The translations under genes were made by a program, and so were the position numbers. DNA of 64,000 bases, taken from contig NZ_SGWY01000002.1 of the NCBI RefSeq assembly GCF_004216665.1, positions 782,685 through 846,684 on the forward strand. The letters run 5' to 3'. Shown here in pieces: positions 26,873 through 32,861 of this stretch (position 1 is its first letter; every line of letters begins with the position of its first letter). The DNA comes from Agromyces ramosus (GTDB lineage Bacteria > Actinomycetota > Actinomycetes > Actinomycetales > Microbacteriaceae). A model generated the notes under the pieces. That model did no database searches and was not told where the DNA came from. It saw nothing but the letters and a program-made list of their open reading frames with translations.

Positions 26873-28951
26873 TCAGGCGTCGATGCGGTCGCGCTCGAGC
26901 GCGTCGGAGCTGTCGATGATGAACTCCTTGCGCGGCGCGACCTCGTTGCCCATGAGGAGCTCGAAGACGCGGCCCGCGTTCTCCGCGTCGCCGATGCCGA
27001 CGCGGCGCAGCGTGCGCTGGCGACGATCCATGGTGGTCGTCGCGAGCTGGTCGGCATCCATCTCGCCGAGGCCCTTGTAGCGCTGGATCGGGTCCTGGTA
27101 CCGGCGGTTCTGCTTCTTCAGCGTCGCGAGCACGCCCTGCAGCTCGGTCTCGGAGTAGGTGTAGATGGTCTCGTTGGGCTTCGTGCCGGGGTTCATCACG
27201 ACCACGCGGTGCAGCGGCGGCACGGCCGCGAAGACGCGACCCTCCTCGATCATCGGCCGCATGTAGCGGAAGAAGAGCGTGAGCAGCAGTGTGCGGATGT
27301 GCGCGCCGTCGACGTCGGCGTCGCTCATGATGATGACCTTGCCGTAGCGCGCCGTCGAGAGGTCGAAGCTCCGGCCCGAACCCGCGCCGATCACCTGGAT
27401 GATGGAGGCGCACTCCGCGTTGCCGAGCATGTCGGAGACGCTGGCCTTCTGCACGTTGAGGATCTTGCCGCGGATCGGCAGCAGCGCCTGGTGCTCGCTG
27501 TCGCGTGCGAGCTTCGCGGTGCCGAGCGCCGAGTCGCCCTCCACGATGAAGAGCTCGCTGTGCGCCACGTCGCTCGAACGGCAGTCGACGAGCTTCGCGG
27601 GCAGCGACGAGCTCTCGAGTGCGTTCTTGCGCCGCTGCGTCTCCTTGTGGGCCCTCGCGGAGATGCGCGACTTCATCTCGGCGACGACCTTGTCGAGCAG
27701 CAGCGCCGACTGCGCCTTGTCGTCGCGCTTCGTCGACGTGAAGCGTGCCCCGAGCTCCTTCGTGAGCACGTTCGCCACGATGGCCCGCACCGCGGGAGTG
27801 CCGAGCACCTCCTTGGTCTGGCCCTCGAACTGCGGCTCGGGCAGGCGCACGGTGATGACCGCCGTGAGTCCGGCCAGCACGTCGTCCTTCTCGAGCTTGT
27901 CGTTGCCGGCCTTCAGGCGCCGCGCGTTCTGCTCGACCTGCAGGCGCAGGAACCGGAGCAGTCCCTGGTCGAACCCGGTCTGGTGGGTGCCGCCCTTCGG
28001 GGTCGCGATGATGTTGACGAACGACTTCACGACCGTCTCGTAGCCGGTGCCCCATCGCAGCGCGATGTCGACGTGGCACTCGCGCTGCAGCTCGGTCGGC
28101 ACCATGGCGCCGCCGTCGGTGAGCACGGGCACGGTCTCGGTGAAGCCGCCGGTGCCGGTGAGCCGCCACACGTCGGTCAGCGGGGCATCCGTGGCGAGGT
28201 GCTCGACGAACTCGGAGATGCCGCCGTCGAACTGGAAGGACGTCGTGTGCGGCTCGGCGCCGCGCTCGTCGGTGACGTCGATGGCGAGGCCGGGCACGAG
28301 GAACGCCGTCTGGCGGGCGCGCCCGAGCAGCTCGTCGGTCTGGAACTCGGCGCCCTTCGTGAAGATCTGGCGGTCGGCCCAGTAGCGGATGCGCGTACCG
28401 GTGACGCCCTTGGCGACCTTGCCGACCACGCGCAGCTCGCTGCGCACCTCGAACGGGGTGAACGGGGCGTCGGGCGACGGGGAGCCGGCATCGGCGAACA
28501 CGCCGGGCTCGCCACGGTGGAACGACATCGCCCACGTCTTGCCGTCGCGGTCGACCTCGACGTCGAGGCGTTCGGAGAGGGCGTTCACCACGGAGGCGCC
28601 GACGCCGTGGAGTCCGCCGGAGGCCGCGTACGAGCCCGAGCCGAACTTGCCGCCCGCGTGCAGCTTGGTGAAGACGACCTCGACGCCCGACAGGCCCGTC
28701 TTCGGCTCGATGTCGACCGGGATGCCGCGAGCCCGGTCGCGGACCTCGACGCTCCCGTCGGGGTGCAGGATGACGCCGATCTCGGCGCCGTGCCCGCCCA
28801 GGGCCTCGTCGACCGAGTTGTCGATGATCTCCCAGAGGCAGTGCATGAGCCCGCGCGAGTCGGTCGACCCGATGTACATGCCGGGTCGTTTGCGCACCGC
28901 CTCGAGTCCTTCGAGGACGGAGAGATGGCGGGCGGAATAGTCGGAGCTCAC
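26873..28951 (-). CDS. parE: DNA topoisomerase IV subunit B
   Basis: 692 aa from a GTG at 28951; upstream in-frame codons precede the promoter-like element and are not used. ATPase and TOPRIM subunit. GHKL motifs: EIIDNSVDEAL, and GGLHGVGASVVNALS; TOPRIM motifs: FIVEGDSALGTAKLARD, and IMSDADVDGAHIRTLLL. ParE rather than GyrB is inferred from pairing with the nearby parC lacking a GyrA box. TAGGCT lies 8 nt before the start. Confidence 0.88.
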   Translation of the reverse strand: MSSDYSARHLSVLEGLEAVRKRPGMYIGSTDSRGLMHCLWEIIDNSVDEALGGHGAEIGVILHPDGSVEVRDRARGIPVDIEPKTGLSGVEVVFTKLHAGGKFGSGSYAASGGLHGVGASVVNALSERLDVEVDRDGKTWAMSFHRGEPGVFADAGSPSPDAPFTPFEVRSELRVVGKVAKGVTGTRIRYWADRQIFTKGAEFQTDELLGRARQTAFLVPGLAIDVTDERGAEPHTTSFQFDGGISEFVEHLATDAPLTDVWRLTGTGGFTETVPVLTDGGAMVPTELQRECHVDIALRWGTGYETVVKSFVNIIATPKGGTHQTGFDQGLLRFLRLQVEQNARRLKAGNDKLEKDDVLAGLTAVITVRLPEPQFEGQTKEVLGTPAVRAIVANVLTKELGARFTSTKRDDKAQSALLLDKVVAEMKSRISARAHKETQRRKNALESSSLPAKLVDCRSSDVAHSELFIVEGDSALGTAKLARDSEHQALLPIRGKILNVQKASVSDMLGNAECASIIQVIGAGSGRSFDLSTARYGKVIIMSDADVDGAHIRTLLLTLFFRYMRPMIEEGRVFAAVPPLHRVVVMNPGTKPNETIYTYSETELQGVLATLKKQNRRYQDPIQRYKGLGEMDADQLATTTMDRRQRTLRRVGIGDAENAGRVFELLMGNEVAPRKEFIIDSSDALERDRIDA

Positions 28952-28959
28952 GTCGCACA

Positions 28960-28965
28960 AGCCTA
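28960..28965 (-). promoter_or_regulatory. -10 element, leaderless start of parE
   Basis: TAGGCT on the minus strand, 8 nt before the GTG at 28951. Confidence 0.45.
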
Positions 28966-29095
28966 CTGACGGCCGGGGACACCACGCGCGAGGCGCTACG
29001 CGCTGAGCGAAATGCCCGCCAAACGGAAGGATGTGCGCCGGTCCCGTGTTTTCATTGATGCACGGATTATTCGAGCGTGAGCAGGAGGAGGAGCC

Positions 29096-29332
29096 ATGAC
29101 GAACTACACCGACACAACCGGTGCGGTCGACGAACTCGACACCCCGTATGAGCTCACGGCACTCGACCGCTGCGATGCATGCGGCGCCCAGGCGTACATC
29201 CGCGTCGTCGTCGCGAGCGGCGAACTCCTCTTCTGCGCCCACCACGGCCGCAAGCACCAGGAGAAGCTCTCGCAGATCGCCCACAGCTGGCACGACGAGT
29301 CGAGCCGACTCCTCGTCGACGGCCGCGACTGA
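29096..29332 (+). CDS. DUF7455-type small zinc-binding protein
   Basis: 78 aa. The pattern LTALDRCDACGAQAY, then ELLFCAHHGRKHQEKL, supplies two cysteines and a Cys/His group for one zinc. This short actinobacterial family is usually near sigA and topoisomerase genes; function unknown. An AGGAGGAG Shine-Dalgarno precedes the ATG, in contrast to the many leaderless neighbours. Terminator follows. Confidence 0.8.
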   Translation: MTNYTDTTGAVDELDTPYELTALDRCDACGAQAYIRVVVASGELLFCAHHGRKHQEKLSQIAHSWHDESSRLLVDGRD

Positions 29333-29348
29333 CCACACCGACTCGAAC

Positions 29349-29381
29349 ACGAACGCCCCGGCTCTCCGCCGGGGCGTTCGT
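29349..29381. terminator. terminator between DUF7455 and gatD-like gene
   Basis: A 13-bp stem (29349-29361 with 29369-29381) with a 7-nt loop between convergent genes. Confidence 0.75.
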
Positions 29382-29414
29382 CGTCTGCGGGCCGAGGGGT
29401 GCGGCCTCCGTGCG

Positions 29415-30158
29415 TCAGGCGTCGGTGGCGGATGCCGCGGCTCGCGTCGCTCCGAGGAGCGCCTCGCGCGCAGCCGACGCGTAGGCGTCGACGGCCGCGG
29501 CGCGTTCACCGGGCGCGTACTCGAGGCCCGCTCGCTCGGCCATGATGCCCAGCAGGAGGTCGGCGAACGCCGGATTCTTCGCGAGCACGGGACCGTGCAG
29601 GTGGGTGCCGATCACGGCTCCCATCACGACGCCCTCCTGGCCGGAGTCGCGACCGTTGCCGCTGCCGGAGCGCACGCGTCCGACGGGCGAGCCCTCCGCC
29701 CGTACGTAGTCGCGGGCGTGGTTCTCGAAGCCCACCAGGAGGCCGAAACGAGGCGAGGCGACGACGAGGTCGCCGGTGACCCGCCCGGAACGCGGCACCG
29801 CACGGCCCGGGACGATCCCGAGTCCCTCGATGCTCGAGCCGTCGGCGCGCTCGACGCCCCAGCTCAGCAGCTCCCATCCGCTACCGACGGCGAGGATGGG
29901 CACGCCCTCGGTGCCCCAGCGCCGGAGCTCGTCGTGCATCGTGAGCAGGATGTCGCGGCTCGCCTCGAGCGATGCGTCGCTGCCCGAGCCGAGCACGACC
30001 GCGTCGACCCGCTCGGGAAGGTCGTCACGCGAGTCGACGCGCACGACGCGGGCGGCGAGGCCGGCCCACTCCGCGCGCCTGGCGAGCACGGCCGCGTTCT
30101 CGGCGTCGCCGTTGGTGTTCTGCAGTCCGGGCAGGAGCGCTGCGATCGTGAGGGTCAT
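29415..30158 (-). CDS. GatD-like glutamine amidotransferase homologue lacking the catalytic cysteine
   Basis: 247 aa, ATG overlapping the murT-like stop (ATGA), so translationally coupled. It aligns with GatD/CobB-type class I amidotransferases, which release ammonia from glutamine for MurT. The histidine is kept (GTHLHGPVLAKNP, H188) and so is SIEGLGI, but the nucleophile region, normally AVCGGYQLL, reads AVGSGWELL: G92 stands where the cysteine should be. The whole protein has no cysteine. Glutaminase activity is therefore not expected; a structural or substrate-positioning role for its MurT-like partner is more likely. The frame is intact, with normal codon use. Confidence 0.85.
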   Translation of the reverse strand: MTLTIAALLPGLQNTNGDAENAAVLARRAEWAGLAARVVRVDSRDDLPERVDAVVLGSGSDASLEASRDILLTMHDELRRWGTEGVPILAVGSGWELLSWGVERADGSSIEGLGIVPGRAVPRSGRVTGDLVVASPRFGLLVGFENHARDYVRAEGSPVGRVRSGSGNGRDSGQEGVVMGAVIGTHLHGPVLAKNPAFADLLLGIMAERAGLEYAPGERAAAVDAYASAAREALLGATRAAASATDA

Positions 30159-31411
30159 TCCGCTCCCGAGAGTCCGAGGTGGGCGCGCGTGCGACGCATC
30201 GCGTCGGCCGAGAACACGATGGTCTTCACGCCGTGCGCGGGGGCGGGCGATGCGAGGAAGTCGTCGAGCGCGCGGCCGAGGTCGGGCTCGACGCGGTCGA
30301 TCTCCACGCCGTCGTAGGCGAGCATGAGCGCCGCCTCGGGTGCCTTCGACCCGCTGACGATCGCCACGCGGCCGAGCGACGAGGCATCCGTCGGCCAGAA
30401 GTAGGAGGGATCGCGCACGTCGGAGCCGATCGCGAAGAGGATCTGCTCGGTGCCGGGCTCGATGCTGTCGACGTTCAGCTGGTAGCTCGCGGGATTCTGC
30501 ACGAGCACGAACTCGACCTCCTGGCCGCGCACGTGCACGCGCTCCCCACGGCCGAAGACGGCCGGGATCTCGCTCAGGGCGTCGGCCGCGGTGGTCGGCG
30601 AGAATCGCTCCCCGAGCACGACCTCGGCGGTCGCGTACGCGGCCGCGGCGTCGACGGCGTAGTGCGTGCCGCGCGCGGGGAGCCTGATGTGCACGGATGC
30701 CGCGCCGTCGCGCAGCACGGCCGAGGCTCCCTCGACCGAGTCGACGATCACGCCGGCGCCGGCGGCGAGCCGGTCGCGCCGGGTCTCGGTGTACCCGAGT
30801 CCGCGCGGCGACCGGGCGAGCACGCCCGCGGAGACGCCGAACCGGTGCACGGCGACCCCTGGGCCGACCGCCGCGGCGAGGCGCTCGAGGTTGGCGTCGT
30901 CGGCGTTGACGACGACGGCCTCGTGTGCACGCTCGGCGATGCGGGCGAGCATGCCCGCGACCATCTCCGAGTCGTGGAACCGGTCGATCTGGTCGACCAT
31001 CACGTTCGTGAGGGCGACGACGCGGGCGTCGACACCCTGCATGACCACGGCGCCGTGACCCTCGTCCATCTCGAGCACCGCGACGTCGCCCGGCACCCTG
31101 CCCGTCCAGTCGGCGCGCTCGAGGAGCGCCGACGTCAGGCCCTGGCTGATGTTCGCCGTCGACGGGTTGGTGAACACGTCGACGCCGTGCGCGCGGAGGA
31201 TGGCGACGAGCATCTTCGTGGTCGTCGACTTGCCGCTCGACCCCGACACCACCACGAGGCCCTGCGGGAATCCCGACAGGGTGCGCTTGAGGTAGCCCGG
31301 CGCGATCGTGTTGACGACCAGGCCCGGAACAGCCGATCCGCCGCCGGGCTTGCGCAGCCGGGCGGCGAATCGAGTGAGCCTGCCGACGAGGATCGCCGGC
31401 GCGTAACGCAC
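30155..31411 (-). CDS. MurT-like Mur ligase family protein without zinc ribbon
   Basis: 418 aa, GTG start 7 nt after the sigA stop. MurT with GatD amidates the alpha-carboxyl of D-Glu in lipid II. Present here: P-loop VVSGSSGKSTTTKML (residues 57-65 core), NPSTANISQGLTSALLE, VLEMDEGHGAVV, TNVMVDQIDRF and NADDANLERL. The segment after NADD that in usual MurT carries a four-cysteine zinc ribbon is replaced by a short cysteine-free stretch (about residues 190-235), and the protein has no cysteine at all. The usual KNP motif reads VQNPASYQLN. Together with the cysteine-less GatD partner this points to altered chemistry. Confidence 0.85.
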   Translation of the reverse strand: MRYAPAILVGRLTRFAARLRKPGGGSAVPGLVVNTIAPGYLKRTLSGFPQGLVVVSGSSGKSTTTKMLVAILRAHGVDVFTNPSTANISQGLTSALLERADWTGRVPGDVAVLEMDEGHGAVVMQGVDARVVALTNVMVDQIDRFHDSEMVAGMLARIAERAHEAVVVNADDANLERLAAAVGPGVAVHRFGVSAGVLARSPRGLGYTETRRDRLAAGAGVIVDSVEGASAVLRDGAASVHIRLPARGTHYAVDAAAAYATAEVVLGERFSPTTAADALSEIPAVFGRGERVHVRGQEVEFVLVQNPASYQLNVDSIEPGTEQILFAIGSDVRDPSYFWPTDASSLGRVAIVSGSKAPEAALMLAYDGVEIDRVEPDLGRALDDFLASPAPAHGVKTIVFSADAMRRTRAHLGLSGAE

Positions 31412-31418
31412 CTGCGGC

Positions 31419-32861
<1,443 letters not shown>

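Follow-up and report, generated by a model that had tools for sequence, protein, structure and literature searches.

A cysteine-free MurT/GatD-like pair and a CofE-fold protein share the sigA-parE slot of Microbacteriaceae: candidate ligases for the group B peptidoglycan cross-link

Introduction

What does a MurT/GatD-like pair do once its amidotransferase subunit has lost the cysteine that releases ammonia from glutamine? The question is raised by two genes of Agromyces ramosus (family Microbacteriaceae), encoding a MurT-like ligase and a GatD-like protein that we call MurT' and GatD'. They lie in a 64,000-nucleotide stretch of contig NZ_SGWY01000002.1 (positions 782,685 to 846,684), which was analysed as a whole and is called the window here; positions are counted from its first letter. 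A first-pass annotation of the window had proposed that the pair was repurposed to attach an amino acid to the D-Glu alpha-carboxyl, which carries the cross-bridge in group B peptidoglycan. We know of no enzyme that has been assigned to this cross-link, and none was found in the literature listings. We examined the pair, its slot in the genome and its relatives, and we favor the reading, which we hold to be probable but by no means secure on the sequences compared, that the MurT/GatD complex was once an amidotransferase and now works as an amino-acid ligase.

Results

The A. ramosus pair is intact and lacks the glutaminase nucleophile

The features described here all lie on the minus strand. 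The MurT' frame (30155..31411; 418 residues, GTG start) is separated by 7 nt from the end of the sigA frame (31419..32861) and overlaps by 4 nt the GatD' frame (29415..30158; 247 residues, ATG start), and the pair is thus present, intact and coupled behind sigA as first annotated. The conserved left edge of this slot is sigA, whose C-terminal 70 residues are near-invariant in the family loci read; the right edge is parE (topoisomerase subunit B; 26873..29509), although its listed frame begins far upstream of the conserved part of the protein and overlaps gatD'. GatD' has the fold of a class I glutamine amidotransferase from which the nucleophile is absent, matching PF07685 (E=6e-16) and the Staphylococcus aureus GatD structures 5n9m and 6gs2 (E=2e-28). 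MurT' matches PF08245 (E=4e-13) and the MurT structures 6fqb, 6gs2 and 7q8e (E about 3e-18); against PF08353 it scored 22.9 bits (E=9e-5), just below the cut-off of 25, and 26.1 bits in a second search. A second, canonical murT-gatD pair was looked for in the same genome (3.84 Mb, 6 contigs) and not found. The single MurT_C match was MurT' itself, and the three GATase_3 matches other than GatD' lay in other amidotransferase-like frames, which we take from their sequences to be PdxT-, PurQ- and HisH-like.

Neither GatD' nor MurT' contains a cysteine, in agreement with the first-pass annotation, and Gly92 of GatD' (codon 29883..29885) aligned to the catalytic Cys94 of S. aureus GatD. In S. aureus, a triad of GatD Cys94 and His189 with MurT Asp349 has been proposed, and the GatD changes C94G and C94S abolish amidation (PMC6113224). 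The natural change in the window is the same substitution as in the dead C94G mutant, and because both mutations abolish activity, the glutaminase of GatD' is almost surely dead. The equivalent of His189 is kept as His188 (29595..29597). The motif around the lost cysteine, G[ST]GWELL, is common to four other members of the genus and one locus of genus g3, and a further Agromyces locus (L309) reads GTGYELL; judged by these alignments, the motif looks conserved rather than decayed. In that further locus (genome G471) GatD' is split over two frames, and MurT' is split in L037 (G433), reflecting either assembly error or real breakage.

Cysteine loss is a trait of the family

We searched 198 genomes of the order and found a GatD match in 73, of which 64 lay outside Microbacteriaceae. 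For the family itself, 56 regions were fetched (the same batches include four regions from other families); a scan with the last 70 SigA residues supplemented these with named loci and yielded at least 80 loci, which are a sample. In the first set, sigA was a neighbor of the pair at 53 of 62 Microbacteriaceae GatD loci, with parE also present in 37, compared with 0 of 28 loci from other families. Among the sigA-containing Microbacteriaceae loci listed, the GatD cysteine was found in 0 of 102 (some genomes are counted twice: L040/L110, L050/L097, L057/L134, L073/L144 and L088/L116), versus 63 of 63 aligned GatDs from other families. The latter all carry the catalytic histidine as well; a 64th, L308, has the cysteine but was left out of the alignment as a short match. 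In the 102 slot GatDs, the Cys94 column holds Gly (71), Ala (13), His (9), Ser (4), Asn (2), Thr (2) or Gln (1), and the histidine is replaced in 46 and kept in 56. Microbacteriaceae GatDs from loci without sigA carry the cysteine in 10 of 16 cases, Leucobacter chromiireducens (L205) being the only one of these placed by name. Cysteine loss is therefore a family trait, confined among the genomes examined to this group B family; within the one order covered, no cysteine-free GatD was seen outside it.

Cysteine-free pairs without sigA in the locus were also observed (L043, L051 and L054); those of L043 and L051 (Amnibacterium setariae) are second copies. Three loci of family f8 (L025, L031 and L095) contain a further MurT/GatD-like pair, with a VCAGMQ-type GatD and a CxxC in MurT, and a cysteine-bearing pair related to it occurs in the Microbacteriaceae loci L219-L221. 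In Naasia lichenicola (L098, genome G464), MurT' occupies the slot next to a transporter-like gene and GatD' lies about 7 kb away.

MurT' keeps the ATP site and changes at the amine end

We compared 20 diverse MurT' sequences with 13 canonical MurTs. The window MurT' retains the P-loop (31217..31243), the magnesium-binding Glu114 and, as Asp334 (30410..30412), the equivalent of S. aureus Asp349. Across the 20 sequences, the P-loop lysine, the magnesium-binding glutamate, one arginine and two aspartates are invariant, and on this pattern MurT' should still activate a carboxyl. Other positions changed consistently. The canonical P-loop GTNGKTTTT becomes GS[SN]GKSTTT (GSSGKSTTT in the window), NVxRDQLDRFGE becomes NVxVDQLxRFxE with a change of RDQ to VDQ, and GxYNxxNAAAA becomes GxHYAxDAAAA, which in the window includes His250 (30662..30664). 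The loop preceding the Asp349 equivalent, INDxYADGRDMSW in canonical MurTs, is three residues shorter, reading DVRDPSY versus YADGRDMSW. By this comparison, the amine end of MurT', at the loop where GatD meets MurT, is rebuilt.

The first-pass annotation had also read the missing cysteines and the missing four-cysteine insertion of MurT' as a special sign. The absence itself was borne out, but zinc-ribbon loss does not mark a new function: 26 of 34 MurTs that stand beside cysteine-bearing GatDs have fewer than four cysteines, so that a ribbon is impossible there, and the zinc finger has been reported to occur in only a subset of MurTs (PMC6113224). Because of both facts we do not regard the Cys4 ribbon as defining, and we rejected its loss as a marker.

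A second cysteine-free form, termed type 3, combines a zinc ribbon with a canonical P-loop, as read in L105, and its GatD lacks both the cysteine and the histidine (LFTHNALEVLG, TSLIGP). It adjoins sigA in L105 and in each of the nine loci fetched for it. A MurT tree of 68 rows recovered MurT' as a single clade (100/100) that includes two long rows, L218 and L222, and type 3 as a separate clade (99/97); each of the two has cysteine-bearing lineages beside it. An approximately unbiased test did not reject a single cysteine-free clade (p=0.129), a result compatible with one origin of all cysteine-free GatDs.

A CofE-fold protein fills the slot in species without MurT

In a survey of 299 Microbacteriaceae genomes, in which six MurT candidates were scored per genome, a MurT-type match (E<=1e-25) was present in 243. 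Canonical and type 3 MurTs are counted here together with MurT' and with a few divergent sequences. Two subsets were scored again: up to 37 candidates were considered in each of 49 genomes to which named loci had led, and every candidate was scored in 46 genomes searched with a type 3 query. When the 49 genomes were searched whole, MurT was absent from 17, namely 15 Microbacteriaceae and two Brevibacterium. The 15 comprise nine Microbacterium, two Salinibacterium, Pseudolysinimonas yzui, Microcella alkaliphila, a Yonghaparkia sp. and Gulosibacter chungangensis. All 15 encode a conserved protein of about 230 residues behind sigA. Its representative, P0003, matches PF01996, the family of CofE-fold proteins (E=4e-13; 50 bits vs a cut-off of 25). 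Its predicted model has a pLDDT (predicted local distance difference test) score of 84.7, and all Foldseek matches in the PDB at E<=0.001 were to CofE (2phn at E=9e-9, 2g9i and 7uld).

The two kinds of ligase exclude each other across whole genomes. The CofE-like gene was found in 49 of the 299 genomes and is carried by 46 of the 56 without a MurT-type match; the two co-occur in three genomes, each time with a weak copy (1e-28 to 1e-30). A Fisher test, which ignores kinship, gave p=2e-40. Two further genomes with the CofE-like gene, G176 and G197, lie outside the 299. Among 30 fetched CofE-like loci, 28 contain sigA beside the gene (exceptions L246 and L251), and the 64 named loci listed with a family-type sigA divide into 36 MurT-type, 24 CofE-like, none with both and four with neither, the last being three Leucobacter and one metagenome-assembled genome (MAG). 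The 64 include L122, L123 and L129, labelled Stenotrophomonas, Actinomycetes and Cellulomonadaceae, respectively. The contig of L122 bears the label Stenotrophomonas maltophilia, although its sigA, CofE-like and parE region is of the Microbacterium type; the record is probably mislabelled or contaminated.

Thirteen genera, including Agromyces (through G135, a species without the MurT pair), hold both kinds in different species. On a quick tree of flanking host proteins, slot state changed at least ten times, eight of these changes being forced by starred branches. The marker proteins neighbor the slot, so that shared transfer is possible. We conclude that a CofE-like gene, which the first-pass annotation did not anticipate, fills the slot in MurT-less species, and this rescues the ligase proposal in a wider form. 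Loci L216 and L217 of genus g120 each show three adjacent genes, one CofE-like, one for a divergent MurT and one for a GatD without the cysteine and histidine (sigA is adjacent in L216), and both slot systems therefore co-occur there.

Elsewhere in the order the CofE-like part is fused to an AsnB-type amidotransferase

A CofE-like homologue was present in 16 of 183 genomes from other families of the order, always in frames of 809-1016 residues. Ten of these fusions were read (L310-L319, from families f12, f17 and f6) and four were scanned with Pfam. The front part of L310, L312 and L313 consists of class II glutamine amidotransferase (GATase_6/7) and asparagine synthase (Asn_synthase) domains, and thus resembles the AsnB/LtsA-type amidotransferases, which act on peptidoglycan; the fourth, L316, had no Pfam match and looks degenerate. 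Because Pfam gave no name to the CofE-like part of any of the four scanned fusions, its assignment rests on 40-46% identity to P0003. The amidotransferase start reads Met-Cys-Gly in four of the ten, Met-Ser-Gly in three and neither in three, and the cysteine after the start methionine is lost in L311, L312 and L314; some of the AsnB parts are degenerate. It is as if glutaminase loss were also under way in these fusions. GatD was found in none of the 16 fusion genomes (Fisher p=0.0015, with kinship ignored and 12 of the 16 from one family).

A class-wide search of 296 genomes found homologues in four genomes of family f35 and one of f33. The f35 homologues are mostly frames of 228-372 residues, and therefore stand-alone copies are not limited to Microbacteriaceae. 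Within the order, the picture suggested by these sequences is of two unrelated ligases that elsewhere have amidotransferase partners and that appear without a working ammonia source in Microbacteriaceae.

Wall types and racemase-fold neighbors

Published wall descriptions place several of these genera in group B. Agromyces aureus (PMC5217419) and Herbiconiux (PMC10011130) have B2gamma walls, Cryobacterium is B2gamma, Glaciihabitans B10 and Salinibacterium type B with Lys and Orn (PMC7033078), and Rhodoluna is B2beta (PMC4156110). Microbacterium walls contain D-Orn, L-Lys or diaminobutyrate (DAB) (PMC10757982), and Leucobacter is a type B genus with DAB (PMC4804768, PMC4511665). MurT' is present in the B2gamma genera Agromyces (in a MAG), Herbiconiux and Cryobacterium. 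Among the named loci, that Agromyces MAG is the one most similar to the window (80% over 5.7 kb).

The first-pass annotation had expected cysteine loss to track group B. The family-wide contrast bears this out, but Leucobacter does not: the one Leucobacter GatD read, from L. chromiireducens, bears the cysteine and stands beside a canonical-type MurT, and three of three Leucobacter genomes searched whole have a MurT of canonical score only. Because Leucobacter is type B yet keeps a cysteine-bearing pair, we rejected a strict link between cysteine loss and group B.

Two adjacent genes of the alanine racemase fold, one with Ala_racemase_C alone and one with Ala_racemase_N and Ala_racemase_C, accompany the slot ligase in 15 of 36 MurT-type and 15 of 24 CofE-type named loci listed (for example, L148:8099-9801). 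In L123 one such gene is seen; parE falls outside the locus in L119 and L123. No racemase-fold gene occurs in the gap of the window itself. The gene pair is a candidate diamino acid racemase. Glycine occurs in Microbacterium bridges, and one could imagine, as an idea only, that the CofE-like protein serves bridges that begin with glycine and MurT' those that begin with a D-diamino acid.

Discussion

The favored reading, conversion of the pair into an amino-acid ligase, builds on the loss of the cysteine, the conserved ATP site, the fixed slot, the mutual exclusion with a CofE-fold protein and the AsnB-type fusion of that protein's relatives elsewhere. What MurT' acts on, which amine it uses and what GatD' does are inferred. 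MurT' would use ATP to convert the D-Glu alpha-carboxyl of a peptidoglycan precursor into an acyl phosphate, as MurT does. The attacking amine would be supplied by the amino acid that begins the group B cross-bridge (among the likely relatives of A. ramosus a diamino acid, for example D-diaminobutyrate) rather than by ammonia derived from glutamine. GatD' would no longer hydrolyze glutamine and may persist for structural reasons, as a lid that gives the amine pocket its shape where the protein meets MurT'. Relatives would carry out this reaction with the stand-alone CofE-fold ligase found in the same slot. The broader proposition, that the sigA-parE gap houses the missing group B enzyme and that MurT and the CofE-fold protein each became an amino-acid ligase and interchange there, possibly according to the first bridge residue, seems to us to stand at about even odds on the present comparisons.

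Several observations weigh against these proposals. A MurT-type match is lacking from 56 of the 299 family genomes and a MurT from 15 of the 45 labelled Microbacteriaceae and searched whole, and we therefore rejected a universal need for MurT'. Both slot states occur within Salinibacterium, Microcella, Microbacterium and Agromyces. The proposed bridge ligase is not found in all group B relatives: the Leucobacter slot held neither ligase in three of three loci, the canonical-type MurT lying elsewhere, and ten of the 299 genomes had neither kind, with nothing related behind sigA in the four that were read (one stretch being 1.2 kb). A slot ligase was likewise absent from ten further genomes (G200, G209, G211, G218, G240, G252, G271, G276, G331 and G360), in which the MurT score was canonical-class or lower. 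In addition, stand-alone CofE-like copies occur in the distant family f35, more than half of the slot GatDs still hold the catalytic histidine, and the slot may be no more than a place where genes replace one another. The repurposing first proposed for the pair thus stands in part: it is favored by the dead glutaminase, the kept ATP site, the rebuilt amine end and the racemase-fold neighbors, and disfavored by Leucobacter and by patchy presence. The wider version with two slot ligases is better supported than the strict one first proposed, and its mechanism is plausible.

The pair may instead act on the D-Glu carboxyl as a side modification, for instance by adding glycine to uncross-linked stems, rather than in building the cross-bridge. 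A nonessential role of this kind would fit the uneven distribution of the ligases and their switching and loss inside genera, Leucobacter manages without a slot ligase, and glycine on the D-Glu alpha-carboxyl is known from the group A actinomycete Intrasporangium calvum (PMC3035309). However, 289 of the 299 family genomes have a MurT-type match or a CofE-like gene (the MurT count includes canonical pairs), and the neighboring racemase-fold genes point to a D-amino acid. We consider a side modification unlikely, though the likeliest of the alternatives.

Alternatively, the pair could still amidate D-Glu with ammonia that is free or supplied by another protein, GatD' serving as a scaffold only. 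The family is known for amidation, and MurT' retains the MurT fold, the ATP site and the Asp349 equivalent. The amine-side residues and the adjoining loop, on the other hand, changed together across the whole clade, group B walls spend the D-Glu carboxyl on the bridge, and the slot CofE-like protein has no glutaminase domain, though homologues elsewhere in the order carry one by fusion. Persisting amidation appears improbable to us. We give similarly little credence to a purely positional exclusion, in which the region behind sigA is especially prone to gene replacement and the two proteins have unrelated functions. Both ligases do occupy the same gap, and the racemase-fold genes also come and go in it, but the exclusion is genome-wide and not limited to the gap, both proteins are amide ligases related to amidotransferase systems, and the AsnB-CofE fusion and GatD are also mutually exclusive in other families. 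That GatD' works with another nucleophile, or that the pair is decaying, is very improbable: the kept histidines would suit the former, but the Cys94 column holds no constant nucleophile, and the frames are intact and conserved across many genera.

With respect to known systems, the pair shares its fold, gene order, ATP site and the His189 and Asp349 equivalents with the MurT/GatD lipid II isoglutaminyl synthase of S. aureus and Streptococcus pneumoniae, and differs in its lack of the GatD cysteine and in the altered amine-side residues. It also falls short of the NCBIfam equivalog cut-offs for that enzyme (GatD', 115.1 of 450 bits; MurT', 79.2 of 800 bits). P0003 shares fold and family with the F420-0:gamma-glutamyl ligase CofE, but it is about 18% identical to solved CofE, scores far below the TIGR01916 cut-off (30.7 of 180.65 bits) and is encoded behind sigA at 28 of the 30 loci fetched. 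The archaeal pMur ligases of pseudomurein show weak Mur ligase similarity over the central P-loop domain, far below cut-offs.

These results offer two candidate enzymes for the group B cross-link at one place in the genome, together with a clear prediction, that of ligases which have lost their glutaminase, with natural replacements within genera that are available for comparison, and with nonpathogenic hosts for study. If true, the conversion of the pair would show how a Mur-type amidotransferase exchanges ammonia for an amino acid as its nucleophile.

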